NCBI GenBank assembly: GCA_034440635.1
Contig: JAOTON010002229.1
Span: forward strand, 248,001 to 312,000
DNA from: Lepas anatifera
Lineage: Eukaryota; Arthropoda; Thecostraca; Lepadidae
Length of the DNA stretch: 64,000 nt
Direction of reading: 5' to 3'
The notes under the pieces were generated by a model. That model was not told the DNA's origin and did no database searches. It saw only the letters and a program-made list of their open reading frames with translations. Shown here one piece after another: positions 1-59,533 of the stretch. Each line of letters starts with the position of its first letter. Position 1 is the stretch's first letter. The translations under genes and the position numbers were made by a program.

Positions 1-557
1 CGGGGCATTTCGCAAGTAACAGAACACCAATTCATATTTCAGGGGAGCGGATCATAAACATAACTACGAGACAATGATTCCAGTGCCACATCCCGGTCAA
101 TGGTTGGGGGAGGGGGGGGCAACGGGCCTTAAAGTTGTTAAAAAATATAAGATTATGAAGAAAACCTACTAAACCGAAAAATATCGGTGGAGGGGCGCTT
201 GGAGGAGGGAAATAAAAATGTTTCCGGCCCCCTTCCTGACCCGCCAGTGAAAGGTTTAGGGTAGATTATAATCAACGCAAGCTACTAGTTAGGAGGTGGG
301 AACAAAGTAAGTGTCACTCTTTTAGTGCCACACAATACGGAATTTCACCATTTCAGGAATAATTTATTTAACAAATTTATAGCTGATAAATTGAAAAGCA
401 TGTACTGAGACGTCGGCACCCGATCGTCGGCAGTCAAGGTCATGACCGGCTGCGCTCGCCGGGTGGTGTAAGGCAAGCGGGCGGGCCCGGGTGGTGTAGG
501 GCAACGGGGGAGAGGGGAGGGAGCAAGGCAGACAATGGGACTGAGATGGCTGTGCTA
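1..557. other. No recognised feature
   Basis: A GC-rich patch at 430-600 on the minus strand contains a short proline- and leucine-rich open frame after a possible acceptor near 560. I could not link it convincingly to the Dpr C-terminus. Confidence 0.4.
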
Positions 558-1395
558 GCTCGTGCATTGACGGGGTCTGAGCCACCTTCGCTTGGGGGGG
601 CGGGTACCCGCTGCTCTAAGATCTCGAGAAACACGCTAGATAACGAAAATCGGTAAACGGCTTTCGGTAGCCCATCCACTGCTCTCTCGAAAATAGTTGA
701 CCATTTTTTTGTCAGGTCACATGTAAGGTCACTAGATATCAAAACATGTCATCATACGGATAATATGTAAAGCAAGGTTTTCGGTCATTTCATCTGAACA
801 AGTAAGGATAGAGCAAAACAATTTAAGCCATTGGAATCCTCGTAGTAAGCAAAATCGAATGATATATGACATGAACTTGCTAGGTCAAAGCAAGGATTTG
901 ACCTGACCTGAGGTCAGGTCAAGGTCACATTAAGTAAAATGTATATCATTAGAACTGCAAAGACAAGGTGATTCTAATGCAGTTAAAAAACTACACTATC
1001 ACCATTCGTTACCAAGTTATTCAGTTAGAACCATTAATCCCATGTGTTTTCAATGGGGAGGTCATGGCTCGTACCTGACCTTAGGTCATCGATATTAAAA
1101 AATCCAGGAAAGTATTTTAGAGAACTCGGTAGGGCTATTATGTGATATGAGCTTCAATGGGATAAGTTCACCCTTCTTTGACTTATGAAATCTTAAACTT
1201 CGTTTTTATGTCGGGTCACTTTACCTGTACTGGTGACCTGACCTGATGTGACATAACCTTAAAATGTTTACAAAAGTTGTAAGAAATGATCAGAAAAAGG
1301 TATGCCAAGTATGGTGGCGCTAGCGCTGCCGTTTCTTCGCTATCTCCAAAATACCCGAGTGGGCGAGTACCCGGCCCCATCAATGCACGTGTTAG
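558..1395 (-). mobile_element. TTAA-type MITE, family B, degenerate copy
   Basis: The copy runs from a right arm with the doubled terminal repeat (gcattgacggggtctgagcc) to a left arm ending in tcaatgcacgtgtta. It aligns along its length with the complete copies at 32604-33451 and 50168-51011. The palindrome around GGGTACCC is decayed at both ends and the terminal TTAA has become TTAG. The body carries many AGGTCA/TGACCT motifs. It lies downstream of the last Dpr exon seen. Confidence 0.75.
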
Positions 1396-2004
1396 TAATA
1401 GCGTGACTTACCATTACGGAGAGCACAGAGCTGTGAGCTCTCATGATCAAAAGTGAAAAAGGGGATACATTAAAATTAATGAAAATAGAACTAGTTGGTT
1501 GAACAGCGTGAATACCTAAAAGTGATGAAAACCTAACTATAAAAGCAGAAAAGCGAGCATCGGTTATATGATTCAGCGCCGTCGCAAACATGACCGAATT
1601 TGAGAGTGAGATAGATTCGGTGCAGCTGATCCATTCTCCGGAACTCACGATGCGATTTCAGCACGAAAAAGACAGCTATCTGTTTTTAAGATGGAAATAA
1701 GGCAAGAGAGGAGGCAAAGAAAAAACCTGCCAACTGCCTCGACCAAATAAACACCCGAAACTATTGATAAATTGATCAGAAACGCAACAGCGCATCGAAA
1801 TCTTAGAGTTGGAAATTATGGGAAGGATAGGAAAATACAAAAAACCTTACTTGGAGTTACAGCTGCATTTTGAAATGTGACAACTGCAAGTTTCAGGAAC
1901 ACGTGAAATCGACTGACACAAAACGTTAATTCTCACGTGAAACGACTTCGACCAATGCACGGAAAACGGGGACATTCCAGACACGGTATTAACGCATGCA
2001 CTGG
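1396..2004. other. No recognised feature
   Basis: I see no exon, repeat family or RNA gene that I can name in this stretch. Confidence 0.4.
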
Positions 2005-2816
2005 AGTAGACCTCAGAGGCGCGTTCCATCTATGTTTCTGAGGTAGCCGAAGAACCACTCGCTGCCGAAAGACGCTACCTTAAAGTTGAGACAATTCAAT
2101 GGCGCATCGATTGATAAAGCAATTTTGAATCCCGGCTGATAATGTTTTCACCCTTAAGCTATCAGAGTCAGACATTTATTTTGAGATCGCCACAAAAGGG
2201 CGGTGGCACGAGTTCGCCTGCATTTGAGACCGAGTGGTAGAGTCATAACGCCACATAAAAGACACCATATATCAAGGTCACCTTACATGAGGGTCAAAGT
2301 CAATTTCAAAATTCACAGGTCAGGGTCGTACCACAATTTTTAAGGTCATTGGTCCCAGTGTTTCCACTATTGATTTCAAGATCAAAGGCCAAGTTAAAAG
2401 GTCACGGGTCAAGGTCAGTCCATATTTCTGGCCCAACGGTTGTTATCGTGTGTGGATATATTGAGCACTGTAGAGAATATGCAATATTGTGACATCATAG
2501 GTCACTGACCTGGCATGACCGCGACCCTAACATTTGGGAAACATCTTTTGGAACTTTCCCACTATGATTTTGGTCGTTTTTTTCGAATATTGTTGTATAT
2601 CGTCCTGCATAAGCACGACACTTCCCTAATAGCTCTCATCACGGTTCAGATTCGACATTTATGACCTCTTTGACAGTTGGCCATGGTGTAGATTATCCTA
2701 GCCTCCCAAGGGTATTTTTTCTAAGGATTCGAGATCTCACAGCAGGGGACTTCCCAGTCCTCCCTCTCCAGTGCGCGTTAGTGCCAGACCCCTCCCCATT
2801 GCAGGTATTTAACTAC
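2005..2816 (+). mobile_element. TTAA-type MITE, family C, degenerate copy
   Basis: The left part (gaggtagccgaagaaccact, 2039 onward) and right end (ctccagtgcgcgttagtgcc, 2765 onward, running to tatttaac) match the fuller copy at 54096-55024. The terminal repeat at the left is no longer recognisable. The interior contains several AGGTCA half-sites. Confidence 0.65.
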
Positions 2817-3549
2817 CACAATCAAGGTTTGGGTCTGAGTTCTGATGATTTCCAATGAGTATGCCGTCTTCAAACAGGCAACAAAGTAATCGTGACATTT
2901 ATCCAGCAGCCTGTTGGTATTCTCGCCTAGAAGTGACCATTTGAGGAGTTTTCTCTGGAGAGGAGTGGAGGAGGACCACTGCGCAGCCTATCAGACAGTG
3001 CAACACTTAACATCGCGGAATCACTGAAGTCCAGCAAAGTAGAAAATCTACCAACATTTTCTCACTGCACACAAAACAAGGAACGTGATACTGTTTTTTT
3101 TGCGTGGGGAGAGGCACTTATTCTGCCGAACGAGCAGCATCAAAATGGTTTTCAAATTTTGCAACAGGAAAATAGCTCGTTAGTGGCTTGCAGTTAAAGG
3201 GTAATCTTTCGAAAACAAGCAATACACTCCTGCGCGCTAGTTTCCTCGCGATTGAGAAAACACGTAAAGCTAGCGCGAAAGACGGCAAGTTACGACACCA
3301 CTAACGCCAAAATTTAGCTGCCCTCCAACTGATCCCTCCTAAAGTCGCTCCACGTCGACTTCCCTGCTGCCGGAGCCGTGCGCCGCCTGCTCCGCGCCTG
3401 GACCCCCTCCCCCCACCTAGGTCATGGTGTGACCTGATGCTTTCAAATACATTCAGCCGACACTCAACTGAAAAAGCATTATGCTATGAGGCAAAGTTCA
3501 CCGAAACATACAGATTATCACAAGGCTTATGATTATCCCCAGAACTGAC
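2817..3549. other. Nothing recognised downstream of the last Dpr exon
   Basis: The expected intron follows exon 4 on the minus strand here. No exon with a hydrophobic C-terminal tail was found. A short GC-rich stretch at 3350-3410 has no open frame I could support. Confidence 0.4.
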
Positions 3550-3721
3550 CGCTGAGAACGTGGACTATGACCTTGGCCTGTCTAAGGCCGTCCGGGTCAC
3601 AGAAGTACTCTCCGGAGTCGGACGGTAGAGCCCGCTCTATGCTGAAGAAGCTGACTGTACGGCCGGACTCGTGCAGTGTTCGCACTCGAACGCCTCTCCT
3701 GGCGGGGTCAAACTGCACCAG
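3550..3721 (-). CDS. dpr: Dpr-like exon 4: second half of Ig2
   Basis: The 172-nt exon starts after the acceptor GGTCGGCAG and ends before GTCAGT. It gives 57 codons plus one base, so the next intron is phase 1. It opens with LVQFDPARRGVRV, matching the family stretch that follows the Ig2 tryptophan strand (typically ISYDSPRGGVSV). It then carries the F-strand motif LPSDSGEYFC with the second Ig2 cysteine, and closes with VIVHVLS, the conserved end of Dpr Ig2 (VHVLNGE in many members). If the donor were not used, the frame would stop six codons later. The acceptor has a poor pyrimidine tract. It joins in phase 0 to the AAA of exon 3, and that joint gives exactly the family spacing, which supports the first donor copy as the ancestral one. 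Confidence 0.86.
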
Positions 3722-3817
3722 CTGCCGACCCCAGGTCACAGGTTACACATCAGGGGCGTACCCAGTGGCATCAGTGCACTGACCAACACCGGGGTGTGCA
3801 TCCAAACCAAAGCTTCC
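3722..3817 (-). other. Intron 3, start of its downstream part
   Basis: A short unremarkable stretch lies between the exon 4 acceptor and a family A element. Confidence 0.5.
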
Positions 3818-4834
3818 TTAACCCTCGCCCCACCGGGGGCCATCGATGCCCCCTAAGGTTTTTCCGGGATAGCAGAAAACGACGAGGCGCAGCACCGCGG
3901 TTGAGAGCTCTACCTCTCACTGCATCATTTTCCCATCATCCCTGAAATTTTTTACCCCGGGTCACCCAAGGTCAGGTCACCAGACGAGGTCAACCAAGGT
4001 CACCTCACTTCAACTTCTGCTCTGTAGGAGCTACATTTCAAAGTCGATCGATTTGAAACTTCATACTCTTCATGACCCCTCCAGGGTCTACAAGGTGTAT
4101 ATCCAGATTTTTAGATTTCGTGCCCTGAGGTCAGGTCACGAGGCGACCTCTCCCATTGGAAAAGCATGGGGAAAACCTGTTTCATGATATAAAAGCCACA
4201 AAAATGATTGCAAATACTCAGACTGCTCAGAACAGCGTTTTTGGACCCCTTTCACGGATCCCAGGGGTCATATTTACCCTTTGACTTTTCCAAGGTCATC
4301 CAAGGTCACCAGAGGTCAAAAACAGTATTTTGACAATAACTTTTGACCTAATTAAGCTAGGCGGTGAAACAAACACCATCGTGTTTGTCTTGTCACTGGC
4401 TTTCATTTAATATACGGCAAGGTCACTTTGTGACCATTCGTGACCTCAGGTCATATTAGGTCACGAGGTGACCTCTGGAGGTCAAACCACTGGCGGGAGG
4501 TCTTTACGCTCCACATAGCGGAAAAGTACTGGCAATTTCCTATCAAATGAACTTTACCAGGCCTCAATAGCTTTAATGACATAAGAGTTATGACCAGTTT
4601 GCTTAATCATTGCATATTTGAGTGAAAATAGCCGATCTTGACCTAATTTGACCTCTGGAGGTCAAACCATTGACCTGAGCACTAAAACATGTGAAGTAAT
4701 TTCTTACTGAATTCACGCGAGCTTTCTATTGCCCGTGGCAGATTTGCGCTAACACCCATATTTTCGGAGTTAGAGGGGGCATCGATGCCCCGGTGGGGCG
4801 AAGGTGGCGCCGACCCCGGTGGGGCGCGGGTTAA
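3818..4834 (+). mobile_element. TTAA-type MITE, family A, complete copy (A1)
   Basis: It is bounded by TTAA on both sides. The left end reads TTAACCCTCGCCCCACC, then the palindrome around CCATCGATG, then TTTTTCCGGGATAGCAG. The right end, read inward on the minus strand, is TTAACCCGCGCCCCACCG, a GGCGCCACCTT spacer, a second CGCCCCACCG and the same palindrome. TTAA targets and CCC-starting ends are the hallmark of piggyBac-type transposons. No transposase frame is present. It sits in intron 3 of the Dpr gene. Confidence 0.85.
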
Positions 4835-5884
4835 TGCTAACTACGATTGCAGAAAATAGTGGGCTACCATTTTCAACACAAGCAAACCTCTTCAGCAAAA
4901 AAAACTACTATTTCCACATTTCACTCACACTGCACATGCATACAACTGTTTTCCAACTTATCTACGGAACGAGCAATCAAATTAGAACTCCAAGAGGTAT
5001 TTTGCTTATACGACCTGCTGCTCTCTAATGCTAAGAAACGCTTTTCATTCGTTAAGTACATAGGGATTATGCAATCATTATTCGAAAGCGATTACAGACT
5101 ACCTGGATCTGCACTGCCTCGACCCGATTCCCTATCGAAACTTAGGAATGAGGCTTCAGTAAAAGGACAAAAACAAATTTCCAAAACTCCGATTTTATTA
5201 TTTTTGCTAATAGAGAAGTCCTTAACGTTTTTTTGCACTTATGTTTGTCAACAGTGTGCATATTGTGACTGGTTTTTTGTACCATGGCTCCTTTAGTTCT
5301 ATCATTGCTTGTCAGAGAGACGGCTCATTCAGTGTCTGGCTTGTGCGCAACTCCCGACCATTCTCTTCTGTTCCGTGTGTTATGAAAACCAATATTTCAC
5401 CAACCAACCAAACCAGCCACGTGAAAATTGGGCGACAACAGTGCCCACTGGGTGGCTAAACGACTTACAACTGAGCTACCCAGCCGGGGCAGACGATATC
5501 TACAAAAATCTTAAATGAAACTTTGGTAGAAAAATAACGCCCCGAGGAATAACGAGATCAGATAAAAAACATTGATGCCTCTCCATGCAAAGGTATCTTC
5601 AATCTGGTGAAATGCGAGCCTGATTGCGACTGTCCTTCCCACAGGAATATCCTGAATCGGTCGCAGCCCCCACCACTTTCGGAACTATGTATTTGCTTCA
5701 GTGATATAATTCGGAATAATTTGCTCAGAGACATTGGAAACCTTCCTAATGAAATTGTAGTGCACAAAGTATTGATTTGCGAGTGACTTAAAAGAAAAGA
5801 GGATGACATAGAGGATGACATACATATCCTGCTGATGATCCACGTATGTCTCAGTAAAATAGAAGAGCAAATATCCCTGTTTTA
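4835..5884. other. Intron 3, no named feature
   Basis: A 149-codon plus-strand open frame (4847-5296) has no recognisable domain and is AT-rich like its surroundings. I regard it as chance. Confidence 0.45.
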
Positions 5885-6250
5885 AGCTGTATAGCTTACT
5901 TTACTGATGTCAGCCGTATGACTTACTTTGCTGTCATCAGCTGTATGACCTGCTCTGATGACGTCAGCTGTATGACTTACTTTGGTGATGTCAGCTGTAT
6001 GACCTGCTCTGGTGTATGACTTACTTTGCTGTTGTCAGCTGTATGACTTACTTTGCTGTTGTCAGCTGTATGACTTGCTTTGCTGTTGTCAACTGTATGA
6101 CCTACTTTGCTGTTGTCAGCTGTATGACCTACTTTGCTGTGGTCAGCTGTATGACTTACTTTGCTGTTGTCAGCTGTATGACTTACTTTGCTGTTGTCAG
6201 CTGTATGACTTACTTTGCTGTTGTCAGCCATAGGACCTACTTTGCTGTTG
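5885..6250 (-). repeat. 27-bp minisatellite made of the exon 3 splice donor
   Basis: There are about 14 units of 27 bp (minus-strand core GACAACAGCAAAGTAAGTCA). The copy nearest the exon begins within the last codons of exon 3 (HNSK). Every unit repeats the exon end AGCAAA followed by a potential donor: eight have GTAAG, three GTAGG and three GC. Counting from the exon, ten copies keep the 27-bp register, so using a later donor would add nine-residue blocks of the type VSHTADNSK in frame. A 22-bp unit near 6001 breaks the register beyond that. Distal units (5885-6000) are more diverged. Confidence 0.92.
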
Positions 6251-6368
6251 TGGGTCCATCGCACGTGCTTGGGTTTCTGGTAGGCGCCCTGGATCAGGCA
6301 GGTCAGGTTGGCGTTGCTGCCTTTGTAGATGTGCAGGTCGGGCCCTCCCACAATCTCCACTGAGGGCT
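6241..6368 (-). CDS. dpr: Dpr-like exon 3: first half of Ig2
   Basis: The acceptor is strong (CTTTCTGTTTCAG). The first two bases complete a codon begun by exon 2 (G|AG, glutamate), followed by 42 codons. The product begins PSVEIVGGPDLHIYKGS, matching the inter-domain joint and A-strand of Dpr Ig2 (typically EILGGPDLYIDRGS). It then has ANLTC, which holds the first Ig2 cysteine and a possible N-glycosylation site, and HVRWTHNSK with the core tryptophan. The end given here uses the first donor, AAA|GTAGGT. The next donor, 27 bp on at 6214, is AAA|GTAAGT, a better match to consensus, so the true exon end may be one of several. The frame stays open to 5977. Confidence 0.88.
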
Positions 6369-8379: not shown

Positions 8380-8892
8380 GGGGAAGGGTGGTGTTTAAAC
8401 ACCCCTTCGGGATTTCCAACGGCCCCAGAAAACAACAAGAAGAAGCGCGGCCATACTGGGCACGCTTTATTCTTGATTGGTTGTGCAACCTGTCTCAAAA
8501 TGGAAACTGCATGTTATCTCGGGTCAGGTCACCAGACAAGAGAAAGTGATATCCTTACCAAAACTTCAAATGGCACCAGTAAAGAAAGGTTTAACAATCT
8601 ATTGATATGATATATTCAAGTTACATAAAAGACTTACCAGGAACCACATGTTGTGGTAACGACATTTTCTATATCGATGAACTAGACTCTGGTACAGGTA
8701 ATTCTGCATTGGAAACACCTACACGTGAACAATAGGAATTAGTCGTTGAAGACTTTCTGAAACGGGGACATTAAAAGGGTTTTCGGACTTGGGTCAATAA
8801 CTTTGCCGGAAATTGTGATCAATATTTCAGTTTGATATATAATTACGTTTTGATTATCATTACGAGTCGATTGGTATGCATATTGAGTTGTG
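8380..8892 (+). mobile_element. TTAA-type MITE, family F, fragment
   Basis: It begins near the family F palindrome, here the perfect GGTGTTTAAACACC at 8389-8402, followed by the usual left-arm order and a GGTCAGGTCACCAGAC block. The right part (ttgggtcaataactttgccg and the following 100 bp) aligns with the interior of the F element at 25007-26885. Both ends are lost and it abuts a family A element. Confidence 0.6.
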
Positions 8893-9876
8893 TTAACCCT
8901 CGCCCCACCGGGGGCCATCGATGGCCCCCTAAGGTTTTTCCGGGATAGCAGAAAAACGACGAGGCGCAGCACCGCGGTTGAGTGCTCTACCTCTCACTGC
9001 ATCATTTTCCCATCATCCCTGAAATTTTTACCCCGGGTCACCCAAGGTCAGGTCACCAGACGAGGTCAACCAAGGTCACCTCTTTCAACTTTAGAGCTCT
9101 GTAAGAGCTACATTTCAAAGTCGATCGATTTGAAACTTGCTACACTTCATGACCCCTCTAGGGTCTACAAGGTGTATATCCGGGATTTTTCGATTTCGTG
9201 CCCTGAGGTCAGGTCACGAGGCGACCTCTCCCATTGAAAAGCATGGGGAAAAGCTGTCTATGATCTAAAAGTCACAAAAGTCATTGAAAATGCTCAGCTT
9301 GATCAGAAAAGCGTTCTTAGACATTTTTACGGATTTCAGGGGTCATATTTACCCTTTGACCTCTCCAAGGTCATCCAAGGTCACCAGGGGTCAAAAACAG
9401 TATTTTGACAATAACTTTTGCCCTAATTAAGCTAGAGGGCTGAACCAAACACCATCGTGTTTGTCTTGTCACTGGCTTTCATTTGATATACGGCAGTCAC
9501 TTTGTGACCTTTCGTGACCTCAGGTCATATTTTGTCACGAGGTGACCTCTGGAGGTCAAACCACTGGCCGGAGGTCTTTACGTTCCATATAGCGGAAAAG
9601 TACTGGCAATTTCCTATCAAATGTACTTTACCAGGCCTCATAGCTCTAATGGCATAAGGTTATGACCAGTTTGTTAATCATTGCATATTTGAGTGAAAAT
9701 AGCCGATCTTGCCTATTTGACCTCTGGAGGTCAAACCATTGACCTGAGCACTAAAACATGCGGTTTCTTACTGAATTCACGCGAGCTTTCTATTGCACTT
9801 TGCAGATTTGCGTTAACGCCCATATTTTCGGTTAGAGGGGGCCATCGATGGCCCCGTGCAAGGTGCCCCCGGTTAA
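8893..9876 (+). mobile_element. TTAA-type MITE, family A (A2)
   Basis: It has TTAA at both ends and a left end with the full palindrome GGGGGCCATCGATGGCCCCC. It aligns along its length with the copy at 3818. The right arm is shortened: after the palindrome only about 25 bp remain before TTAA, and the second terminal-repeat copy is missing. Confidence 0.85.
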
Positions 9877-10239: not shown

Positions 10240-10893
10240 GGGGCATAACCGGATCGTCCCTCCCCAAGGTCCGCCCCTGAGGGATAAATGTATATTGCAA
10301 AATGTAGTTGCAAGCTTCACTGTAAGTGAAAGTCAATTAGAGCCTAAGAAGATTGATGTTCTTACCGTTATAGAGTCGAATTTTTAGTGTGATTTTCCCG
10401 CGTATCTCTGGAATTCTCAGAGTTTTGTCTTTACCAGTCAGGGTGTATCCTCATGATGTATTACACCCGGAAAGTAATGGATGCATTGTTAGGAATGCAG
10501 CAATGGTTCTGACCCCAATCTATGGTTTCCCTGACTTGACGAAATATTTCGATAAGCTAATGGCAAGCATTTCTCTTAAAGGTCACATCTGGCAGAATAC
10601 AAACCGAAACTATTCGGTTTAGAGCCACATAAAGGAAGATTAAACCTTGCAATTTAGAGGCTAGTCATGTGTCATGTTTGATGAAAACGAGTGTCCCCAC
10701 ATGAAAAGCTGGCGATATTGTAGATCATCACAGTCCCTAAAAGCCTAAATGATTTTTTTTGTAACCCTCTTGGTTTCCGAGATATCATGGCGGGTGGGGG
10801 AGGGGGTTGGTACTTGAGTACGTAGTGGTGCGGGTACTTTAGGACCTCTCCATTGCGCGTTGACGCCAGAACCTTCTCCACTGTGCGTGTTAA
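10240..10893 (+). mobile_element. TTAA-type MITE, family D (D1)
   Basis: This is the inverted partner of 28657-29275. Shared stretches include the region with AACCGAAAC and ATTCGGTTT and the AGCATTTCTCTTAAAGGTCA block. The right arm (GTTTCCGAGATATCATGG, then a G-rich palindrome remnant and a doubled terminal repeat) ends at a TTAA (10890-10893) that is also the first TTAA of the next family A element. The left end is not defined. Confidence 0.7.
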
Positions 10894-11831
10894 ACCGCGC
10901 CCCACGGGGGTCCGGTGTCACCTTCGCCCCACCCGGGCCATCGATTGCCCCCTCTAACTCCGAAAATATGCGGGGTCAGCGGAAATTTGCAAAGTGCTTT
11001 GAAAAACTCGTGTGAATTTAGTATGCTTTTACTTAACATGTTTAAGCGCTCCGGTCAATTGTTTGACCCCCAGATGTCAAGTTGGGTCACGATAGGCTAT
11101 TTCTACTAACATTTGGTAGAGAAGATTTGATGGTAATGTCAGGGTTTTCTCCGCTATGTGGAACATAATGATCTCCCGCCAGTGGTTTGATATCCAGAGA
11201 GTACATCGTGACCTAAGATGGCCTGAGGTCACGAACGGTAAAAAAGTGACCTTACCGTATATCAAATGAAAGCCAGTGACGAGACATACACAATTACATG
11301 CACAATGCGATCTAGATTCATTGAGTCAAAAGTTAAAGTCAAAATACTGTTTTTGACCCCTAGCGACCTGTGATGACCCCAAATGGTTGAAGGTCAAATA
11401 TCACCCCTGAAATCCGGAAAGGGTAGCCAAGAACGCTTTTCTGAGCAATCTTGGCATTTGCAATCCTTTGTGTGTCTTCTCGGTCAAAGACAACTATTTC
11501 CATGCTTTTTTTAATGGGACAGGTCACCTCGTGACCTCACCACAGGTCACATAATCGAAAAATCTTGGATATAATTTTTTTAGAATCTGGAGGGATCATG
11601 AAGTGTAGAAAATTCCAAATCCATCTGCCCAGAAATGTAGCCATGGTAGAGCTCAAAAGTTGTGCCTGATGACCTGACATAGAGTGGCCCGGGTTAAAAA
11701 ATTTCAGAGAGGGTGGGAAACTGATGGGCTGAGAGATAGGCCCATCAAACACGGTGCTGCACCTTGTCGTGTTATGTTCTGTTATTAAAAAAAGCCTAGA
11801 GGGGTCATCGATAGCCCCGGTTGGGCAAGGG
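10890..11831 (-). mobile_element. TTAA-type MITE, family A (A4), diverged
   Basis: It runs from TTAAACCGCGCCCCACGG with the doubled right arm to GGTCATCGATAGCCCC at the left arm. It is more diverged than the other A copies. The final TTAA is lost. Confidence 0.75.
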
Positions 11832-12492
11832 ATACAGCGACTCTAACTCGCTCCAGTAATATGCTAGAGTCAAGAAAATATTAACCAACTATCACATTCT
11901 TTGATATGTCATGGTCCCAATGACCTGAGCCCAAAAAAATGTTTTTTTTCATAATATTTTCCTGTGGGAGATTTACCACCATTCCTGTTTTTTTTATATC
12001 CCGCACAGGAGTCGAGATCAAACAGGGAATTGTTCGCCCCCCGCCCCCTGCTACCTTTGCCACCGGGGCGAAGGTGGGGCAGATGCTAATTGTTTTACCA
12101 CGTTATGTATAATGTTTTTCAACTATCTAGTTCGGTCCACTGTGGTGCCGAAATGCGAGGTGGGAGCATATGCCACCGTGAGAGTGCTGCACCTGATTAA
12201 CGGCGGTGTTTTTAACGGGTGCCGACTTGGATTTTAGCGTTGGCGTTTTCCGTGCTGCCTGGAATTGGCAGTGGCGAAACAATACACCAGAATAAAGACC
12301 TGGAAACCTGAGTGCTCTTTTTTACTTTACTTGTTGCTGCACCTTTAGCGTACTTCCAGTGGTGTGTATTAAAAAAATTATTTGGGGGTGACAACATGTG
12401 AAGCAAAGTCAAGGACCACCTAATATAATGGGATATTATAAGGTATGTGCGTTTTAGCCCTCTTACAGAGCCAATACATAAATTTAGAATAT
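11832..12492. other. Intron 2, MITE scraps
   Basis: A scrap at 12030-12085 (CACCGGGGCGAAGGTGG) resembles a right-arm terminal repeat of the TTAA elements. The rest is not recognised. Confidence 0.4.
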
Positions 12493-29275: not shown

Positions 29276-29396
29276 GCCCCCACGCGAAATAGAGGGCGCC
29301 AGATTCTCGCTGCCACCCCCCCCCCACCACCTAAAAGCAAACTGGTGTTTCATAATTGATCAATTAAGGAGGACGTGTCAGTCAGTAAAACAAATA

Positions 29397-30409
29397 TTAA
29401 CCCGCGCCCCACCGGGGGTCCGGCGCCACCTTCGCCCCACCGGGGGCCATCGATGGCCCCCTCTAACTCCGAAAATATGGGCGTTAGCGCAAATCTGCAA
29501 AGTGCAATAGAAAGCTCGCGTGAATTCAATAAGAAATTACTTCGCATGTTTTAGTGCTCAGGTCAATGGTTTGACCTCCAGAGGTCAAATTAGGTCAAGA
29601 TCGGCTATTTTCACTCAAATATGCAATGATTAAGCAAACTGGGCATAACTCTTATGTCATTAGAGCTATTGAGGCCTGGTAAAGTAAATTTGATAGCAAA
29701 TTGCCAGTACTTTTTCCGCTATGTGGAACGTAAAGACCTCCCGCAAGTGGTTTGACCGCCAGAGGTCACCTCGTGACCTAATATGACCTGAGGTCACGAA
29801 AGGTCAAAAAGTGACCTTGCCGTATATCAAATGAAAGCCAGTGACAAGACAAACACGATGGTGTTTGTTTCACCGCGCTAGCTTAATTAGGTCAAAGTTA
29901 TTGTCAAAACACTGTTTTTGACCTCCGGTGACCTTGGATGACCTTGAAAGTCAAAGAGCAAATATGACCCTGGGATCCGTGAAAGGGTGTCCAAAACGTT
30001 GTTCTGAGCAGTCTGAGTATTTGCAATCATTTTTGTGACTTTTATATCATGAAATAGCTTTTCCCATGCTTTTCCAATGGGGAGGTCGCATCGTGACCTG
30101 ACCTCAGGGCACGAAATCAAAAATCCCGGATATACACCTTGTAGACCCTGGAGGGGTCATGAAGTGTAGGAAGTTTCAAATCGATCGACTTTGAAATGTA
30201 GCTCTTACAGAGCTCTAAAGGTGAAGTGAGGTGACCTTGGTTGACCTCGTCTGGTGACCTGACCTTGGGTGACCCGGGGTAAAAATGTCAGGATGGTGGA
30301 AAAATGATGCAGTGAGAGGTAGAGCCCTCAACCGCGGCGCTGCGCCTCTTCATTTTCTGCTATTTTGGAAAACCTTAGGGGCATCGATCCCCCGGTGGGC
30401 GAGGGTTAA
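29397..30409 (-). mobile_element. TTAA-type MITE, family A, complete (A6)
   Basis: The doubled right arm is the cleanest in the window: TTAACCCGCGCCCCACCG, then GGTCCGGCGCCACCTT, then CGCCCCACCG and the full palindrome GGGGGCCATCGATGGCCCCC. The left end finishes CGATCCCCCGGTGGGCGAGGGTTAA. The next 70 bp (30410-30480) are shared with the flank of the copy at 38536. Confidence 0.88.
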
Positions 30410-30480
30410 GACGGCATCTTGTTTGGGACAACATATATAGACACAAACAATTTTAAAAACAATGATCTGTAACATTGGAA

Positions 30481-32603: not shown

Positions 32604-33451
32604 TTAACACGCACATTGACGGGGGGGCGGGTACCCGCCCCCTCGGGTTTTTCGGAGATAGCAGAAAAACAGCGGCGCATAGTGCCGCCGTACTTGGTAT
32701 ACCTTTTCCCTCATCATTTTTAAACTTCTGTAAAACTTTTAAGGTTAGGTCATGTCAGGTCAGGTCACCAATACAGGTCAAGTGACCCGACCTCAAAAAA
32801 AGTTTAAGATAGCATAAGTCGGAGCAGGGTGAACTTATCCGATTGAAACTCATATCACATAATGGCCCCACCGAGTTCTCTAAAATATGTTCCGGTATTT
32901 TCTATATCGATGACCTAAGGTCAGGTACGAGGCATGACCTCTCCATTGGAAATACATGGGAAAAATGTTTTTTTACGGAATAACTCAGCAACGGATGGTG
33001 ATAGAGCATTTATTTTAGCTGCATTAGACTCGCCTGGGATTTGCAGTTCTAATGATATGTTTTTTATATAACTTGACCCTGACCTGACCTCAGGGCAGGT
33101 GAAATCCTTGATTTGACCTAGAAAGGTCAAATTATATATCATTCGATTCGGCTTGCTGAGAGGATTCATATAGTTTAAGTCGTTTTGCTCTATCTTTACT
33201 TGTTCAGATGTAATGGCCGAAAAACTGAATTTATATGTTATCCCTATGACGACATGTTTTGACCTCTCGTGACCTTAAATGTGACCTGACAAAAAATGGT
33301 TCCAATATTTTCGATGGAGAAGTGGATGGGCAGCCCAACGCCGTTTACCGTTTTTCGCTACCTACCGTGGTTCTCGAGATCTTAGGGTGGGGGTTACCCG
33401 GCCCCCTGTCAATGCGAAGGTGGCTCAGACCCCCGTCAATGCGCGTATTAA
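32604..33451 (+). mobile_element. TTAA-type MITE, family B, complete (B2)
   Basis: It is bounded by TTAA. The left end is TTAACACGCACATTGACGGG, palindrome GGGGGCGGGTACCCGCCCCC, then CGGGTTTTTCGGAGATAGCA. The right end has a decayed palindrome, TCAATGCGAAGGTGGCTCAG and a terminal TCAATGCGCGTATTAA. The body contains TGACCTCAGG and many further half-sites. Confidence 0.88.
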
Positions 33452-33679: not shown

Positions 33680-34538
33680 TATCATTAGGTCACAATTAGG
33701 CTATTTCTACTAAAATATGCAATGCTGAAGAAACCTGGGCATATATATCATACCATTAGAGCTATTGAGATCTGACAAACTAGATTTGATAGTAAAATGC
33801 CAGGGCTCTCTCCACTCTATGGAACATATTGATCTCCTGCCAGTGGTTTGACCTCCAGAGAGCACCTCTTGACCTAGCATGACCTGACGTCACGAAAGGT
33901 GAGAAAGTGACCTTATCGTATATGAAATGAAAGCCAGTGACAAGACATACACGGTGACGTTCAATTCAGTGTTCTAGCTTGATAAGGTCAAGAGTTATTG
34001 TCAAAATGCTGTTTTTGATCCTTGGTGACATGTGATGATTTCAGATAGGTCAAAGAGTAAGTATCGCCCCTGAAATCCGTCAAAGGGTGGTCAAGAATGT
34101 TTTTATGAGAAATCTGAGCATTTACGATCATTTTTTGTGAGTTTTAGACCATAAGACAGTTTAAGATAAGTTTTTCCCCATGTTTTTTTAATGGGACAAG
34201 TCACCTCGTGACCTGAACTCAGGTCACCAAACCGAAAAAAATCCCGGATGTGCATTTTGTAGACCCTGAAGAGGTCATCAAGTGTAGAAAGTTTCAAATC
34301 AATCAGTCAAGAATTGTAGCTATAATATAAGTCAAAAGTTGAAGTGAGGTGACCTTGTTCGACCTCTCCTGGTGACCTGACCTAATGTGGCCCGAGGTGA
34401 AAAATTTTAGGGCTGGTGGGAAAATTATAAGGTGAGAGGAAGACCCCTCAGCTGTGGTGCTGCGCTTCGTCCTTTTTTGCTATTCTGAAAACAAACCTTA
34501 GAAAGGTCATCGATGGTCCCCGGTGGGGCGATGGTTAA
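33680..34538 (-). mobile_element. Family A MITE, right end truncated (A7)
   Basis: It aligns with family A from CACAATTAGGCTATTTCTAC to the left arm GGTCATCGATGGTCCCCGGT, GGGGCGATGGTTAA. The first 200 bp of the family are missing. Confidence 0.75.
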
Positions 34539-37700: not shown

Positions 37701-38535
37701 GGCAGGGCTTGATTGTTTAAATGATTCCGGTGGTGGCACGCCGGGCACGGCCTCGCCGCGGTCCGGGCAGTCTGTTCCGCCGGGCCCGGAAACGGGATAG
37801 CCCTACCGTCTGGTACGTGGGGCGGTGATGTGGGCGTGCGGGGATGTCCGAGGGTGCCGATAAGCGTAGCCCGCTGCGTGTACGGTGTCTGGTGTGTGTG
37901 GGCAATGTATAAAATGTTCCCGGGTGGGCGCGCAAAATATTAGAAATAAATTCTGCGCTCTTCACTTTATCCGCATCTGCGGGATCTTATCTTCCAGTCA
38001 TTACTACAGAAATGCTGCTTATCTGTGGCTTTTGTTTTTTGGGTGGAAATAATAATGTTTTATTTTTGATTAAGTTTTTGTTTCAAACTTTGATTTAGGT
38101 GGTTGCTATACTAGATAATTTTGGCTGCACAGAAATTTTTGATTCTGCTCTGTTTGTTTTGTTGTGTTTGGTGCTGACAAGCCACATGTTGTGAATATTG
38201 TTAGCAATATTTGCAATGTGTTATCTCATTGCCTATTGTCATGACCGTGGCTGGAGCACCTAAGCTTAAAGTGCATTTGCTAGCCCGCCGGAATCGACAA
38301 TAAAATTTCGGAAAGCCTTGGCAATGGTCAAACGATGACAGGCGTGCCGCTTCTTACACCGAGAGCTTTTTCGAGGCCGACACTTCCTCCTGCATCAAAG
38401 TATTGTTATTGGAAAATTTGTGGACGTCCGTAGTAAATTCCAACATAGACATAGCTAAAATAGACCTTTGTGAAAGTATATCAGTTCTTTGTCCGTTTCT
38501 TACGGCACAATAATTGCCATCAGGAGTCTGCTTTG
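37701..38535. other. Intron 2, no named feature
   Basis: GC-rich to 37960, then AT-rich. Nothing recognised. Confidence 0.4.
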
Positions 38536-39567
38536 TTAACCCTCGCCCCACCGGAGGTCCAGCGCCACCTTCGCCCCACGGGGGGCCATCGATGGCCCCT
38601 CCCTCTAACTCCGAAAATATGGGCGTTAGCGCAAATCTGCAAAGTGCAATAGAAAGCTCGCGTGAATTAAGTAAGAAATTGCTTTACATGTTTTAGTGCT
38701 CAGGTCAATGGTTTGACCTCCAGAGGTCAAATTAGGTCAAGATCGGCTATTTTCACTCAAATATGCAATGCTTAAGCAAACTGGGCATAACTCTTATGCC
38801 ATTAGAGCTATTGAGATCTGGTAAAGTATATTTTATAGGAAATTGTCAGTCCTTTTTCCGGTATGTGAAACGTAAAGAGCTCCCGCCAGTGGTTTGACCT
38901 CCAGAGGTCACCTCGTGACCCAAGATGACCTGAGGTCACGAAAGGTCAAAAAGTGATCTTGCCGTATATCAAATGAAAGCCAGTGATGAGACAAACACGA
39001 TGGTGTTTGTTTCAGCGCTCTAGCCTAATTAGGTCAAAAGTTATTGTCAAAATACTGTTTTTGACCCCTGGTGACCTTGGATGACCTTGGAGAGGTCAAA
39101 GGGCAAATATGACCCCTGAAATCCGTGCAAAGATGTCTAAGAACGCTTTTCTGATCAAGCTGAGCATTTTTAATGGCTTTTGTGACTTTTAGATAATAAG
39201 GCAGCTTTTCCCCATGCTTTTCAATGGGAGAGGTCACCTCGTGACCTGACCTCAGGGCACGAAATCGAAAAATCCCGGATATACACGTTGTAGACCCTGG
39301 AAGGTTCATGAAGTGTAGGAAGTTTCAAATTCATCAACTTCGAAATGTAACTCTTACAGAGCTCTAAAGTTGAAGTGAGGTGACCTTGTTTGACCTCGTC
39401 TGGTGGCCTGACCTTGGATGACCCGGGGTAAAAAATTTCAGGGATGGTGGGAAAATGATGCAGTGAGAGGTAGAGCCCTCAACCGCGGCGCTGCGCCTCT
39501 TCATTTTTCTGCTATCCCGGAAAAACCTTAGGGGGCCATCGATGCCCCCCGGTGGGGCGAGGGTTAA
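38536..39567 (-). mobile_element. TTAA-type MITE, family A, complete (A8)
   Basis: TTAA at both ends, doubled right arm at the low coordinate, GGGGCCATCGATGGCCCC palindrome, and left arm ending CGGTGGGGCGAGGGTTAA. It is very similar to the copies at 29397 and 41515. Confidence 0.88.
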
Positions 39568-39640
39568 GACGGCATCTTGTTTGGGACAACATATATAGAC
39601 ACAAACAATTTTAAAAACAATGATCTCTAACATTGGAATT
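39568..39640. repeat. Flank shared with the A6 copy
   Basis: About 70 bp after the TTAA (GACGGCATCTTGTTTGGGAC, then ACATATATAGACACAAAC and on) are almost identical to 30410-30480, with one substitution seen. The flanks on the other side of the two elements are unrelated. Confidence 0.85.
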
Positions 39641-40228: not shown

Positions 40229-41514
40229 TACTTTCCTTGTAACACATACATGTATTTCACATTACAATAAGCATCAAACCATCTGCATGAGCATCAATAT
40301 CTCATGCCATTAGTAGCTTTAAACTCATGTCATTAGTAGCTTTTGGCTAATTGTGTACAATTAAACAAGTTTATCACGGTGTTATCCTGGTTTTCCGTTC
40401 AGTTGGTTTCGATCTGTCCCTGTTCAGTGCCAGCAAAATATTTATTGACTTACCATCAGCTCGGCACCTGAGGTCACTTCCACAGCAGGGGCAATCAATG
40501 GCGTTCAAAGGAAAAATCTGGAAATTTTTCGACTTGGGAACGGTGTGTATGAAAACCTCAACCCCCAGGAGACAATTGCTATATTTAAACAGAATGTGGG
40601 ACTTCATAATGGATTGGAACTGATAAAGCCATGTGATAGATCATGTCGAGAAACCACTCGGCCGAAATTTAATTTGCCAAAATTTACCCTTCGTGGAGAA
40701 TAAGGGTATAATATTACCGCCTACCTACCCCTGCCCTTTTGGTCACGTGGTATGAATAAAACTTAGGAACGTGACCTAATACTCAGGCCCAATGCGAGGA
40801 CAACTATTTTTTGCTTGAAACTCTTTAAAACCCACGTACCAGTCGGACTAGCCTTCGTTGCTGGCGACTATACATACGTAAAAATAGTTTTTTTCATTGG
40901 TCAGTTTGAAATGTGAGAGATGTTATGATATATAAAAAACTGAAGTCTATAAGCGCAAGTTTGGTTCCTAATAATAACCTGTTTTAGCTAAACACCCTTC
41001 ATTTGTTTTCATATTCTGGTTCAGGGTATTACCAGATATTACATCAATTTGACGTTACGCAATGTGGAGCCCTTCTTATATCTAACAGAGCAAAATCAGA
41101 TAGAACACATTATTAAGAGCAAGGTGCCATGGTCCCCCACAAAAGGACAAAACTCTGGCAAATTTTCAAATAAAAAAGTTTTTACGATTTCTCCCGAGTT
41201 TCCCCCTCCTCCTGTAACAGCGTTTCTTCGTCCACCCCTGGCAGAAATAAGATCATATCCATTATTTTCAATGCAAATTGTGCCTAAAAACCGCTACAGT
41301 TTTGAATTGCACCGAGGTACCATATTCTATTCAAAAGCGAGGCTAAGTAATCGGCCAATATTCTATCTCGTAACAGTGACCCGGTATTGCCGCCTTCTGG
41401 GCAGGCATCATGTCACGTGGCTCACTTTTTATGATTTATCTCTGATTTGTTTTCTATTGAATATGCGGTGGTTTTAGAAGATAATTTCTGGGCTTTTATA
41501 AACTTCCAGTTGCC
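40229..41514. other. Intron 2, no named feature
   Basis: A 142-codon plus-strand frame (41049-41477) has no recognised domain. Nothing else is seen. Confidence 0.4.
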
Positions 41515-42514
41515 TTAACCCTCGCCCCACCGGGGGCCACCGATGGCCCCCTAAGGTTTTTCCGGGATAGCAGAAAAACGACGGGGCGCAGCACCGCGGT
41601 TGAGGACTCTACCTCTCACTGCATCCTTTTCCCACCATCCCTGAAATTTTTTACCCCGGGCCACCCAAGGTCAGGTCACCAGAGGAGGTCAACCAAGGTC
41701 ACCTCACTTCAGCTTTGGAGCTCTGTAAGAGCTACATTTCTAAGTCGATCGATTTGAAACTTCCTACACTTTATGGCCCCTTCAGGTCTAGAAGGTGTGT
41801 ATCTGGGATTTTTCTATTTTATGCCCTGAGGTCAGGTCACGAGGTGACCTCTCCCATTGAAAAAGCATGGGGAGAAGCTGTCTTATGATCTAAAAGTCAC
41901 AAAAGCGATTGAAAATGCTCAGCTTGATCAAAAAGCGTTCTTGGACCCTCTTTCACGGATTCCAGGGGCCATATTTGTCCTTTGACCTCTTCAAGGTCAT
42001 CCAAGGTCATCAGGGGTCAGAAACAGTATTTTGGCAATAACTTTTTACCTAATTAAGCTAGAGCGCTGAAACAAACAGCATCGTGTTTGTCTTGTCACTA
42101 GCTTGCATTTGATATACAACAAGATTACTTTCTGACCTTTCGTGACCTCAGGTCATCTTAGGTCACGAGGTGACCTCTGGAGGTCAAACCACTGGCGGGA
42201 GGCCGATACGTTTCACATACCGGAAAAAGGACTGACAATTTTCTATCAAATGTATATTACCAGATCTCAATAGCTCTAATGGCATAAGAGTTATGCCCAG
42301 TTTGCTTAAGCATTGCATATTTGAGTGAAAATAGCTGATCTTGACCTAATTTGACCTCTGGAGGTCGAACCATTGACCTGAGCACTAAAACATGTGAAGT
42401 AATTTCTTACTGAATTCACGCAAGCTTTCTATTGCACTTTGCAGATTTGCGCTAACGCCAATATTTTCGGAGTTAGAGGGGGCCATCGATGGCCCCCGGT
42501 GGGGCGCGGGTTGA
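41515..42514 (+). mobile_element. TTAA-type MITE, family A (A9)
   Basis: It starts TTAACCCTCGCCCCACCG and ends GGGGCGCGGGTTGA, the last TTAA mutated to TTGA. The right arm has lost its second terminal repeat; only one remains after the full palindrome. Confidence 0.86.
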
Positions 42515-42520
42515 ACTAGG

Positions 42521-43318
42521 TTAAACTGCGCCTGACCGGGGATCTGGCGCCACCTTCGCCCCACCGGGGGCCATCAATAGCCCCCTCTAACTCCGAAAAT
42601 ATGGGGGCTAGTGCAAATCTGCGAAGTGCATTAGAAAGTTCGTGTGAATTTAGTGGGAAATCAATTTGAATAATTAAGCGCTCAGGTCAATTTTTTTACC
42701 TCCAGAGGCCAAGTTAGGTCACGATAGGCTATTTCCACTGTACTATGCAATGCTTAAGCAAACACTGGACATAGCTCTCCTGCAGTCAGAGCTATTGCAA
42801 TCTGGTAAAGTAAATCTGATAGGAAAATACCAGATATTTTTCTGCTATGTGGAATATGATGACCTCCCGCCGGTGGTTTGATCTCCAGAGGTCACCATGT
42901 GACCTTATATGACCTGAGGTCACAAAAGCTCGGAAAGTGGCATTGCCGCATATTGAATGAAAGCCAGGCACAAGCCATACACAATGACGTTTATTTCAGT
43001 GGTTTAGCTTAATTAGGTCAAAAGTTATCGTCAAAATACTGTTTTTAGCCCCTGGTGACCTATGACGACCTCAGATATGCCAAAGGGAAAATATTGCCCC
43101 TGGAATGCGTGAAAGGGTGTCCAAGAACGTTTTTCTGAGCATTTTCTTAATCATTTTCGTGACTTTTAGATCATAAGACAGCTTTTCCCATGCTTTTCCA
43201 ATGGAAAAGGTCACCTTGTGACCTGACCTCAGATGACGAAGTCGAAAAATCCCGGATGTAAATTCTGTGTATCCTGGAGGGGTCATGAAATGTAGGAATT
43301 TTTAAATCGATCGGCTCA
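42521..43318 (-). mobile_element. Family A MITE, left end truncated (A10)
   Basis: It begins TTAAACTGCGCCTGACCG with the doubled right arm and a mutated palindrome, CCATCAATAG. It matches the family to about 43318, where it breaks off. It is tail-to-tail with A9, six bases apart. Confidence 0.78.
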
Positions 43319-43434
43319 GCAAAACTTACCTCAGGCCTCTGGCCACCTCCACCTTGCACTCCTCGCCTGACGACGGTCTAAGACTGAAACGTTGCATCTA
43401 CCTCATCCCACGTTTTTCGTATCCAGGATTGCCG

Positions 43435-43680: not shown

Positions 43681-43719
43681 ACCTCGGCATATGTCAGTGA
43701 TGGCTAGTGTGGGACTCAC

Positions 43720-43924
43720 CGACTACATCGAGCACGACCTCGTGGGAGACGGGAGGTGTGCTGCTGACTTGACAAAAGTACACCCCGGCGTCCGACCACC
43801 GCACAGAGCTGATGCGCAGACCCCAGTCGTCACTGTACGCCTGGTGAAGCGTCTGGTAGCGTGGGTCGTCGACGAACACCTCCATCCCAGCCGTCAGTAG
43901 TCGCACACCGTGACCCCACGAGAC
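43720..43924 (-). CDS. dpr: Dpr-like exon 2: second half of Ig1
   Basis: The exon is 205 nt: 68 codons plus one base. The acceptor is GTGGTTTGCAG and the donor CG|GTGAGT. It starts VSWGHGVRLLTAGMEVFV, which holds the core tryptophan and the Dpr LTAG or LTVG strand. It continues DDPRYQTLHQ, DDWGLRISSV, SDAGVYFCQVSSTPPVSH and EVVLDVV, all diagnostic of Dpr Ig1 (compare DAG.YECQVST.P..S..V.LNVV). The loop between the tryptophan and LLTAG is about two residues shorter than usual. The first 39 nt are one unit of the 50-bp minisatellite next to it, so the array has entered coding sequence. About 20 further acceptor copies lie upstream in the intron. Confidence 0.88.
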
Positions 43925-44970
43925 CTGCAAACCACCCCAGCCGTCAGTAGTCGCACACCGTGACCCCACGAGATCTGCTGAGCATCCCAGCCGTCAGCGA
44001 AGGCACGCCGTAGCCCAACGAGACCTGCAAGCTACCCCAGCCCTCAGCAGTCGCACACCGTGACCCCACGAAACCTGCAGATCCCCCAGCATTTAGCAGA
44101 GACACATTGTGACCCCACGAGACCTGCAAACCACCCCAGCAGTCAGTGAAGGCACACCGTGACCCCCGAGACCTGCAAACCACCCCAGCAGTGAGTGAAG
44201 GCACATCGTGACCTCACGAGACCTGCAAACCACCCCAGCCGTCAACGAAGGCACACCGTGACCTCACGAGACCTGCAAACCACCCCAGCAGTCAGTGAAG
44301 GTACATCGTGACCTCACGAGACCTGCAAACCACCCCAGCAGTGAGTGAAGGCACATCGTGACCTCACGAGACCTGCAAACCACCCCAGCAGTCAGTGAAG
44401 GTACATCGTGACCTCACGAGACCTGCAAACCACCCCAGCCGTCAACGAAGGCACACCGTGACCTCACGAGACCTGCAAACCACCCCAGCAGTGGTGAAGG
44501 CACATCGTGACCTCACGAGACCTGCAAACCACCCCAGCCGTCAACGAAGGCACACCGTGACCTCACGAGACCTGCAAACTACCCCAGCAGTGGTGAAGGC
44601 ACATCGTGACCTCACGAGACCTGCAAACCACCCCAGCCGTCAACGAAGGCACACCGTGACCTCACGAGACCTGCAAACCACCCCAGCAGTGAGTGAAGGC
44701 ACATCGTGACCTCACGAGACCTGCAAACCACCCCAGCCGTCAACGAAGGCACACCGTGACCTCACGAGACCTGCAAACCACCCCAGCAGTCAGTGAAGGT
44801 ACATCGTGACCTCACGAGACCTGCAAACCACCCCAGCAGTCAGTGAAGGTACATCGTGACCTCACGAGACCTGCAAACCACCCCAGCCGTCAACGAAGGC
44901 ACACCGTGACCTCACGAGACCTGCAAACCACCCCAGCAGTCAGAAGTCGGACACCGTGACCCCACGGAAC
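43886..44970 (-). repeat. 50-bp minisatellite made of the exon 2 splice acceptor
   Basis: There are about 21 units of 49-50 bp. On the minus strand each is the first 39 nt of exon 2 plus the last 11 nt of the intron (GTGGTTTGCAG), so nearly every unit ends in an AG acceptor. The units nearest the exon are diverged and mostly keep TGG in the VSW codon. Those from about 44210 on are nearly uniform and have TGA there. The distal end shows GTTCCGTGGGGTCACGG after GTTGCCTGAG. Because 50 is not a multiple of three, most alternative acceptors would shift the frame. Confidence 0.93.
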
Positions 44971-49967: not shown

Positions 49968-51645
49968 TTAACACACGCATTGACGGCGAGGGTGGGTACC
50001 CGCCCCCTCGGGTTTTTTGAAGATAGCAGAAAAACGGCGGCGCGTAGCCCCCGTATTTGGCATACCTTTTTCCTCATCCTTTTTACAACTTCTGTGAACA
50101 TTTTAAGGTTACGTCATCTCAGGTCAGGTCACCAGTAACGGTCAAGTGACCTGACCTCAAAACAAGTTTAACACGCGCATTGACGGGGGTCTGAGCCACC
50201 TTCGCATTGACGGGGGGCGGGTACCCGCCCCCTTAAGATCTTGAGAACCACGGTAGGTAGCGAAAAACGGTAAACGGTGTTGGGCTGCCCATCCACTTCT
50301 CCATCGAAAACATTTAAACCATTTTTTGTCAGGTCACATTGAAGGTCACGAGAGGTCAAAACATGCCGTCATAGGGATAACATGTAAATTCAGTTTTTCG
50401 GCCATTACATCTGAACAAGTAAAGATAGAGCAAAACGATATAAACGATATGAATCCTCTTAGCAAGCCGAATGGCATGATATATAATTTGACCTTGCTAG
50501 GTCAAATCAAGAATTTGACCTGACCTGAGGTCAGGTCAGGGTCAAATTATATAAAATGCATATCATTAGAACTGCAAAGCCCAGGCGAGTCTAATGCAGC
50601 TAAAATCAATGCTCTATCACCATCCGTTACTGAGTTATTCCGTAAAAAAACATTTTTCCCATGTTTTTTCCAATGGAGAGTTCATGTCTCGTACCTGACC
50701 TTAGGTTATCGATATAAAAATACCGGAACATGTTTTAGAGAACTCAGTGGGGCCATTATGTGATATGAGTTTCAATCGGATAAGTTCACCCTGCTCCGAC
50801 TTAAGCTATCTTAAACTTTTTGAGGTCGGGTCACTTGACCTGTACTGGTGACCTGACCTGAGATGAACTAACCTTAAAATTTTCACAGAAGTTGTAAAAA
50901 TGATGGGGAAAAAGGTATGCCAAGTACGGCGGCGCAACGCGCCGCCGTTTTTCTACAATCTCCAGAAAACCCGTGGGGGCGGGTACCCGCCCCCGTCAAT
51001 GCGCGTGTTAAGATAGCATAAGTCGGAACAGGGTGAACTTATCCGATTTAAAATCATATCACATAATGGGCCCACCGAGTTCTCTGAGATGTGTTCCGGT
51101 ATTTTTGATATCGATGACCTAAGGTCAGGTACGAGGCATGACCTCTCCATTGGAAGTAAATGGGAAAAAGGTTTTTACTAAATAACTCAGTAACAGATGG
51201 TGGTAGAGCGTTTATTTTAGCTGCATTAGACTCGCCTTATCTTTAAAGTTCTAATGATATGCATTTTACATAATTTGACCTTGACTTGACCTCAAGTCAG
51301 GTCAAATCCTTGATTTGACCTAGCAAGGTCAAATTATAAGTCATTCGATTTGGCTTGCTGCGAGGATTCATATAAATTAAGTCGTTTTGCTCTATCTTTG
51401 CTTGTTCAGATGTAATGGCCGAAAACCTTAATTTACATGTTTTCCCAATGACAGCATGTTTTGACCTCTCGTGACCTTAAATGTGAGCTGCCAAGAATGG
51501 TTCAATTATTTTCGATGGAGAAGTGGATGGTATACCCAACACATTTTACCGTTTTTCGCTAGCTACCGTGGTTCTCGAGATCTTAGGGGGTACCCGCCCC
51601 CGTCAAAGCGAAGGTGGCTCAGACCCCCGTCAATGCGCGTATTAA
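49968..51645 (+). mobile_element. TTAA-type MITE, family B (B3), split by a second copy
   Basis: The left part is 49968-50171 (TTAACACACGCATTGACGG, palindrome GGGTACCC, GGGTTTTTTGAAGATAGCA) and the right part 51008-51645, ending TCAATGCGCGTATTAA. Removing the nested copy and one TTAA gives AAGTTTAAGATAGCATAAGT, exactly the sequence of the intact copy at 32812-32822 and after. Confidence 0.88.
50168..51011 (-). mobile_element. TTAA-type MITE, family B, complete, nested in B3
   Basis: Both ends are TTAA. The right arm has the doubled terminal repeat (TTAACACGCGCATTGACGGG, GTCTGAGCCACCTTCGCATT) and a palindrome; the left arm ends GGGGGCGGGTACCCGCCCCC, GTCAATGCGCGTGTTAA. This is the best-preserved family B copy. 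Confidence 0.9.
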
Positions 51646-59378: not shown

Positions 59379-59533
59379 CTGTTTGGTGTCGCCGATGTGT
59401 TTGACGCGGCAGTTCAGTATGACGGAGCCCCCGACGGTGGCTGTCTGGTTTCCGGAGAACTCGACCACAAACTCGGGGCCGGCCGGAAGTTGGGCAGTGG
59501 CGTTATCACTCTCTGCTGCCGACGGTACCGAAC
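59379..59533 (-). CDS. dpr: Dpr-like exon 1 of those seen: first half of Ig1
   Basis: The 155-nt exon has acceptor GGGTTTCAG and donor CAG|GTCAGT. Its first two bases complete a codon from an upstream exon (phase 1) and it ends on a full codon. The product includes FVVEFSGNQTATVGGSVILN, then C, RVKHIGDTKQ. This is the A to B strands of Dpr Ig1 with the first cysteine (compare NCRV.NLGDK, normally followed by VSW), and it joins in phase 0 to VSW of exon 2. NQT is a possible N-glycosylation site. The preceding 17 residues (from SVPSAAESDN) are a linker. No start codon or signal peptide belongs to this exon; those must lie upstream on the minus strand, and I found no candidate between 59534 and 64000. 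Confidence 0.84.

Follow-up and report, generated by a model that had tools for sequence, protein, structure and literature searches.

Tandem repeats that span a splice donor have been described in human genes. In ABCA7, an intron-18 VNTR with a 25-bp unit has the exon-18 donor as its first two bases, and the reference carries 23.7 copies (PMC5954066). Canonical splicing and retention of one unit by use of the second donor were both measured at this locus, two frame-shifting isoforms account for 14 and 2 per cent (the 2 per cent being read as unit retention), and VNTR length goes with skipping of exon 19 and with lower expression (PMC5954066). The 31-bp VNTR of human CBS is named c.1444_1467+7(16_21), a notation that we read as a donor-spanning unit of 24 nt of exon and 7 nt of intron, repeated 16 to 21 times (PMC2630376). 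Among human paralogues, tandem repeats at exon-intron boundaries reportedly alter splicing, with 27 intron modifications listed (PMC2812944), and tandem duplication of coding sequence has been given as part of the explanation for novel intron positions in Drosophila (PMC2891723).

Here we analyzed a 64-kb stretch of barnacle DNA (the window; positions 248001-312000 of contig C2085 in a 1.04-Gb assembly), in which the donor of exon 3 of a gene lies in an array of 27-bp units. This array shares with the ABCA7 VNTR that it spans a donor, but a 25-bp unit breaks the reading frame in ABCA7 whereas a 27-bp unit keeps it in the barnacle; length variation among people and exon 19 skipping were measured for ABCA7, whereas the barnacle array is the sequence of one assembly (PMC5954066). 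The CBS unit is likewise not a multiple of three, and CBS is polymorphic in people (PMC2630376). The human internal tandem repeats and the barnacle arrays are both boundary minisatellites; the human ones are described from recent paralogues with units of 30 bp on average in four copies, whereas the barnacle arrays have about 9 to 22 copies and belong to an arthropod gene family (PMC2812944).

The gene in the window is most likely a nerve-cell adhesion gene of the barnacle. Its exons 1-4 lie on the minus strand (Table 1) and, when joined, code for the two domains Ig1 and Ig2 of a Dpr-type protein; the second domain follows the first directly, and exons 2-4 form one open frame. Ig2 matches the solved Dpr4 structure (6eg0_A) with an E value of 1.8e-14 over query positions 5-101, which bears out the Dpr-type identity proposed in a preliminary description of this DNA, and it scores over cut-off with both the Ig_3 and the I-set family of Pfam. 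The joined exons can be aligned to the barnacle proteins P0001-P0003 (245-282 aa), and six of the eight matches in a protein search came from the barnacles Amphibalanus amphitrite (best identity 69%) and Pollicipes pollicipes (67%). Named public relatives are annotated as hemicentin-2-like, Dscam-like or hypothetical proteins. Compared with the two-Ig synaptic adhesion proteins Dpr and ZIG-8, the gene has the same Ig1-Ig2 order and its Ig2 matches Dpr4 over the full length, while the motifs WTH..K/LVQFD and FCDPDGL mark it as a member of a barnacle-type clade. The C-terminal motif of the relatives, sought as a membrane anchor, was not found within 20 kb downstream of the gene, and Rfam and tRNA scans of the window gave no matches. 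The window also contains copies of two dispersed repeat families. Those of an approximately 1-kb family are up to 93% identical and occur in both orientations, one of them lying within the intron that separates the 27-bp array from exon 4; those of the second family are also up to 93% identical.

Table 1. Features of the window and of related loci in the same assembly (columns: feature, position, strand, description; a slash marks an exon boundary)
Exon 1	59379..59528	-	Part of Ig1, 5' end not fixed; ...SAAESDNATAQLPAGPEF...CRVKHIGDTKQ; donor CAG/GTCAGT at 59378
Exon 2	43720..43924	-	Second half of Ig1, VSWGHGVRLLTAG...VVLDVV; donor TCG/GTGAGT at 43719
Exon 3	6241..6368	-	First half of Ig2, EPSVEIVGGPDLHIYKGSNANLTCLIQGAYQKPKHVRWTHNSK; the first 27-bp unit takes in the final 11 nt
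Exon 4	3550..3721	-	Second half of Ig2, LVQFDPARRGV...YFCDPDGL...VLS; acceptor GGTCGGCAG/CTG at 3721
Donor-spanning tandem array	5885..6252	-	14 units of 27 bp, each about 11 nt of exon edge and 16 nt of intron
Donor 1	6239..6240	-	AGCAAA/GTAGGT; putative ancestral donor on the exon side; yields the length of the relatives when joined to 3721
Donors 2-9	6023..6213	-	6213, 6186, 6159, 6132, 6105, 6078 (GC), 6051, 6024; in frame, 1-8 nine-residue blocks
Five older, diverged units	5885..6008	-	Other frame; donors 5980, 5926, 5899 lead to stop codons
Acceptor-spanning array	43882..44966	-	50-bp unit of 43 nt of exon-2 start plus TTTGCAG; 21.8 copies (TRF); extends into the intron
C141 exon-3 donor array	L026 316-810		31 bp x 16
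C2085 plus-strand gene, exon-2 acceptor array	L032 118-485		43 bp x 8.6
C142 exon-4 acceptor array	L038	-	42 bp, at least 10.1 copies (runs off the piece examined)
C507 exon-2 donor array	L045 582-1000		37 bp, at least 11.3 copies (runs off the piece examined)
Dispersed repeat family of about 1 kb	3816-4835, 8886-9858, 10888-11842, 29396-30410, 33684-34538, 38534-39570, 41508-43322		
Second dispersed repeat family	561-1394, 32605-33451, 49968-51645, 59825-60367		
67-bp array	L017 6093-7546		21.5 copies

The preliminary description had reported about 14 copies of a 27-bp unit from the last codons of exon 3, and we find 14 units, the first of which takes in the exon end (TRF limits 5877-6251). 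Units 1-9 are in perfect 27-bp register; after unit 9 the spacing is 17 bp, a shortening by 10 bp that a repeat search returns as 44 (27 + 17). We obtained the same donor counts as that description, namely eight GTAAG (6213, 6186, 6159, 6051, 6024, 5980, 5926 and 5899), three GTAGG (6240, 6132 and 6105) and three GC (GCAAGT at 6078 and two diverged AGCAGGTC units), so that the exon edge and donor are copied with GTAAG or GTAGG in 11 of 14 units and with GCAAGT in one. The hexamer AGCAAA, said to stand before the potential donor in every unit, is present at only 10 places; the first nine units, which are in frame with exon 3, all have it ahead of a donor. The donor motifs of the array are not a product of chance: AAAGTRRG occurs 16 times on the minus strand of the 64 kb, 11 times at array donors. 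A search of the 1.04-Gb assembly with the array DNA, which skips very common words, returned the array itself as the single match. Tandem arrays are often mis-sized in assemblies, and the copy number, or the array as a whole, might be the work of the assembler. We consider this very improbable, given that single units carry private substitutions and divergence is graded, that the array occupies one locus, and that the sampled genome holds arrays of many different units.

The junction of exon 3 with exon 4 at 3721 is in phase 0. Nine donors, from 6240 to 6024 and including one GC donor, can be joined to 3721 with the frame open, adding zero to eight nine-residue blocks, while the distal GTAAG donors lead into stops. 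The earlier statements that the frame stays open through the first copies and that multiples of nine residues can be inserted without breaking it are thus correct, for nine units (until a TAA at 5979-5977) and for eight extra donors. An open unit such as this 27-bp one is what luck would give in about one array in five (0.20 per array by simulation). Inserted blocks may sit at the C-C' turn of Ig2, a placement derived from the alignment with Dpr4 and from general Ig topology. The earlier term Ig recognition domain calls for caution: binding between Dpr and DIP proteins is by Ig1-Ig1 contact (PMC6374074), and in the nematode relative ZIG-8, whose Ig2 binds an acetylcholine receptor, a contact that is described lies between the A and G strands and not at C-C' (PMC12881522).

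From these features the preliminary description had derived a controlled, length-variable loop in Ig2, in which the choice of a later donor in splicing adds 9n residues, within a range set by VNTR copy number. The eight frame-keeping donors and the blocks free of stops are what such a length dial would need, and the predicted U1 pairing (ViennaRNA) of the GTAAGT donors at 6213, 6186, 6159, 6051 and 6024 (-5.3) is slightly better than that of donor 1 (-5.0; GC copy, -1.1; other donors of the window gene, -7.7, -9.1 and -4.9). Since donor 1 pairs no better than the GTAAGT donors, sequence alone does not favour it. The relatives point the other way. With zero blocks the junction reads WTHNSK/LVQFD, and five barnacle proteins that cover it (P0001-P0005, all gene-model proteins) read WTH(N/D)NK/LVQFD without an insertion; P0006 has no insertion either. 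The absence of the insertion from barnacle relatives suggests that donor 1 is ancestral. A protein search with the open frame of the array yielded 1056 candidates, none of them at E ≤ 0.1. Neither the donors nor the peptide are spared inside the array. In copies 2-8, 3 of 42 cells of the donor hexamer are changed compared with 2 of 147 elsewhere (Fisher 0.07, toward more change), and all four kinds of substitution seen alter the amino acid, where 15 of the 81 possible changes would be silent.

The window gene has a second array at the acceptor of exon 2 (Table 1). Its units are of alternating types, with a 100-bp period also reported by TRF, most copies contain stop codons in the exon frame, and all 20 intron-side acceptor-like copies lead to a stop, at the third codon in 15 of them. 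No direct repeats were found in five other junction regions of the gene. We searched the genome with an Amphibalanus protein and obtained 49 exon-like matches, the weaker of which are not necessarily Dpr genes; all were examined together with some 0.1-0.7 kb of flanking sequence (window, 4 matches; L025-L056, 32; L057-L069, 13). A junction array was called when a TRF array overlapped the end of a protein match, the six called arrays were then read by eye, and not all junctions in this set and in the myosin set described below were placed base by base. Two of the six arrays that include a splice site are those of the window gene and four belong to relatives. Arrays with no splice site inside or with few copies were left out of the count: L057 (5.5 copies, after an exon-4 donor), L052 (5.8), L028 (3.6) and, on the same grounds, L036 (a purine repeat), L037, L049, L054 and L058.

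To judge from their sequences, the six arrays look independent of one another, having units of different length that match locally, pair by pair, over short stretches. The in-frame 27-bp array is the exception among them, and each of the other five shifts the frame or contains stops. In the C141 relative, the 31-bp unit at the exon-3 donor does not keep the frame and contains TGATGA, and all 14 further donors found there by pattern (15 further units exist) lead to a stop. The same is true of all eight upstream acceptors of the plus-strand gene on C2085; the 42-bp array of C142 has stops in the exon frame, and the 37-bp unit of C507 is not a multiple of three. These frame-breaking arrays, the C141 exon-3 donor array among them, argue further against a built length dial, and we regard a controlled loop of variable length as quite unlikely.

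We compared the number of junction arrays with the minisatellite content of the genome. In a sample of twenty 10-kb pieces plus three neighbours of the window, 31 arrays (unit of at least 15, at least 4.5 copies) cover 13,831 of 229,997 bases, or 6.0%. A 67-bp array on L017 has a unit that contains both TTCCACAG and CAGGTGGGT and could be a repeated exon-like unit. Six arrays at up to 98 junctions are as this cover predicts (P of at least 6: 0.54). For the two arrays of the window gene, an initial chance estimate of 0.0024 for both touching a junction ignored the 6.0% cover and was superseded; with it, the probability of at least 2 of 7 junctions is 0.06. As a control, 20 myosin exons with flanks of about 350 bp or more contained no array of the same kind, and only two 2-copy repeats lay around them (L074, L086). 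The probability of none in 40 myosin junctions at 6% cover is 0.08, and conserved exons may therefore be partly protected from arrays. The myosin exons are short ones picked by hand, before the flanks were seen, from 75 matches; those that lay within a long open frame, and a few more, were passed over. Several of the 20 are neighbours at a single locus (C1580, C1417), and one stretch has a second match, only the named match of each being scored. Cytochrome P450 genes were dropped as a control set, being mostly long uninterrupted frames and hence a poor control for junctions; many P450 matches run for about 490-550 aa without a break, which suggests that those genes have few introns.

The difference between all 49 matches and the myosin exons has a Fisher value of 0.17. 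The barnacle-type Dpr clade, taken for these statistics as the window gene, the plus-strand gene on C2085, C141 and C142, shows a concentration of arrays: they occur at 5 of its 16 exons compared with 1 of the 33 other matches (Fisher 0.011) and with none of the 20 myosin exons (Fisher 0.012), and 5 of 28 junctions at 6% cover has a probability of 0.024. The grouping was made post hoc, and we treat this concentration as a lead, not a result. Another explanation is that the arrays have a non-coding function in which many U1 sites aid exon recognition or guard the long intron, or distal donors and upstream acceptors divert transcripts to decay, with array length controlling dosage. Arrays do recur at both donors and acceptors in one gene clade, and the length of the ABCA7 VNTR tracks exon skipping and expression (PMC5954066). 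Moreover, in the arrays of C141 and C507 (L026, L045) all 26 units tested have an unchanged GTAAGC donor, and none of 12 donor columns varies compared with 20 of 56 columns elsewhere (p 0.013), which could mean that the additional donors are being maintained. The 27-bp array of the window goes in the opposite direction (2 of 6 donor columns vary, 2 of 21 elsewhere), and the three arrays pooled give no significant difference (p 0.15). The arrays also lie at different junctions, their units are alike over short stretches only, and at 43 of the 49 exon places no array extends across a junction. We consider a non-coding function unlikely. Similarly unlikely is the broader proposal that the synaptic Dpr clade of barnacles repeatedly and independently makes donors and acceptors into tandem arrays with intact splice signals, as length-tunable splicing elements for isoforms or dosage, the 27-bp case adding nine-residue steps to the Ig2 loop.

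Overall, we favour recurrent capture of splice sites by minisatellites, with the exon-side site used and an occasional leak of nine residues, and give this reading a probability of about 0.7. It draws on the anatomy and frame of the array, its single locus, the lack of an insertion in barnacle relatives, the arrays at other splice sites, the minisatellite-rich genome and the ABCA7 precedent as reported (PMC5954066). In this view, a minisatellite would have taken over the donor of exon 3 in a Dpr gene of the barnacle type, and successive 27-bp duplications would have extended it from the edge of the exon into the intron. The spliceosome would mainly pick the exon-side copy, joining donor 1 to 3721 and giving a normal Ig2. 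Donors 2-9 would provide an in-frame leak, through which a small fraction of transcripts may gain 9 or 18 residues at the C-C' turn; transcripts made from the distal donors would be exposed to nonsense-mediated decay. A low-level leak of this kind is plausible from the sequence, and the open frame would be incidental. Arrays at junctions would be able to persist since the copy on the exon side remains functional. We count against capture that the barnacle-type clade has more arrays than pure luck predicts (in a grouping made after the data were seen), that GTAAGC is invariant in C141 and C507, and that predicted U1 pairing does not favour donor 1.

In minisatellite-rich genomes, these findings suggest care in gene annotation and in copy-number typing at splice junctions. 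The arrays provide a natural set within one gene family, in which splice sites are present in about 9-22 similar copies (donors in units of 27, 31 and 37 bp, acceptors in units of 42, 43 and 50 bp). Such exons make it possible to test directly how the spliceosome picks one of several nearly identical sites, and also whether junction arrays do harm or are neutral. With the 27-bp array, one could look for leaky nine-residue insertions in an adhesion protein.
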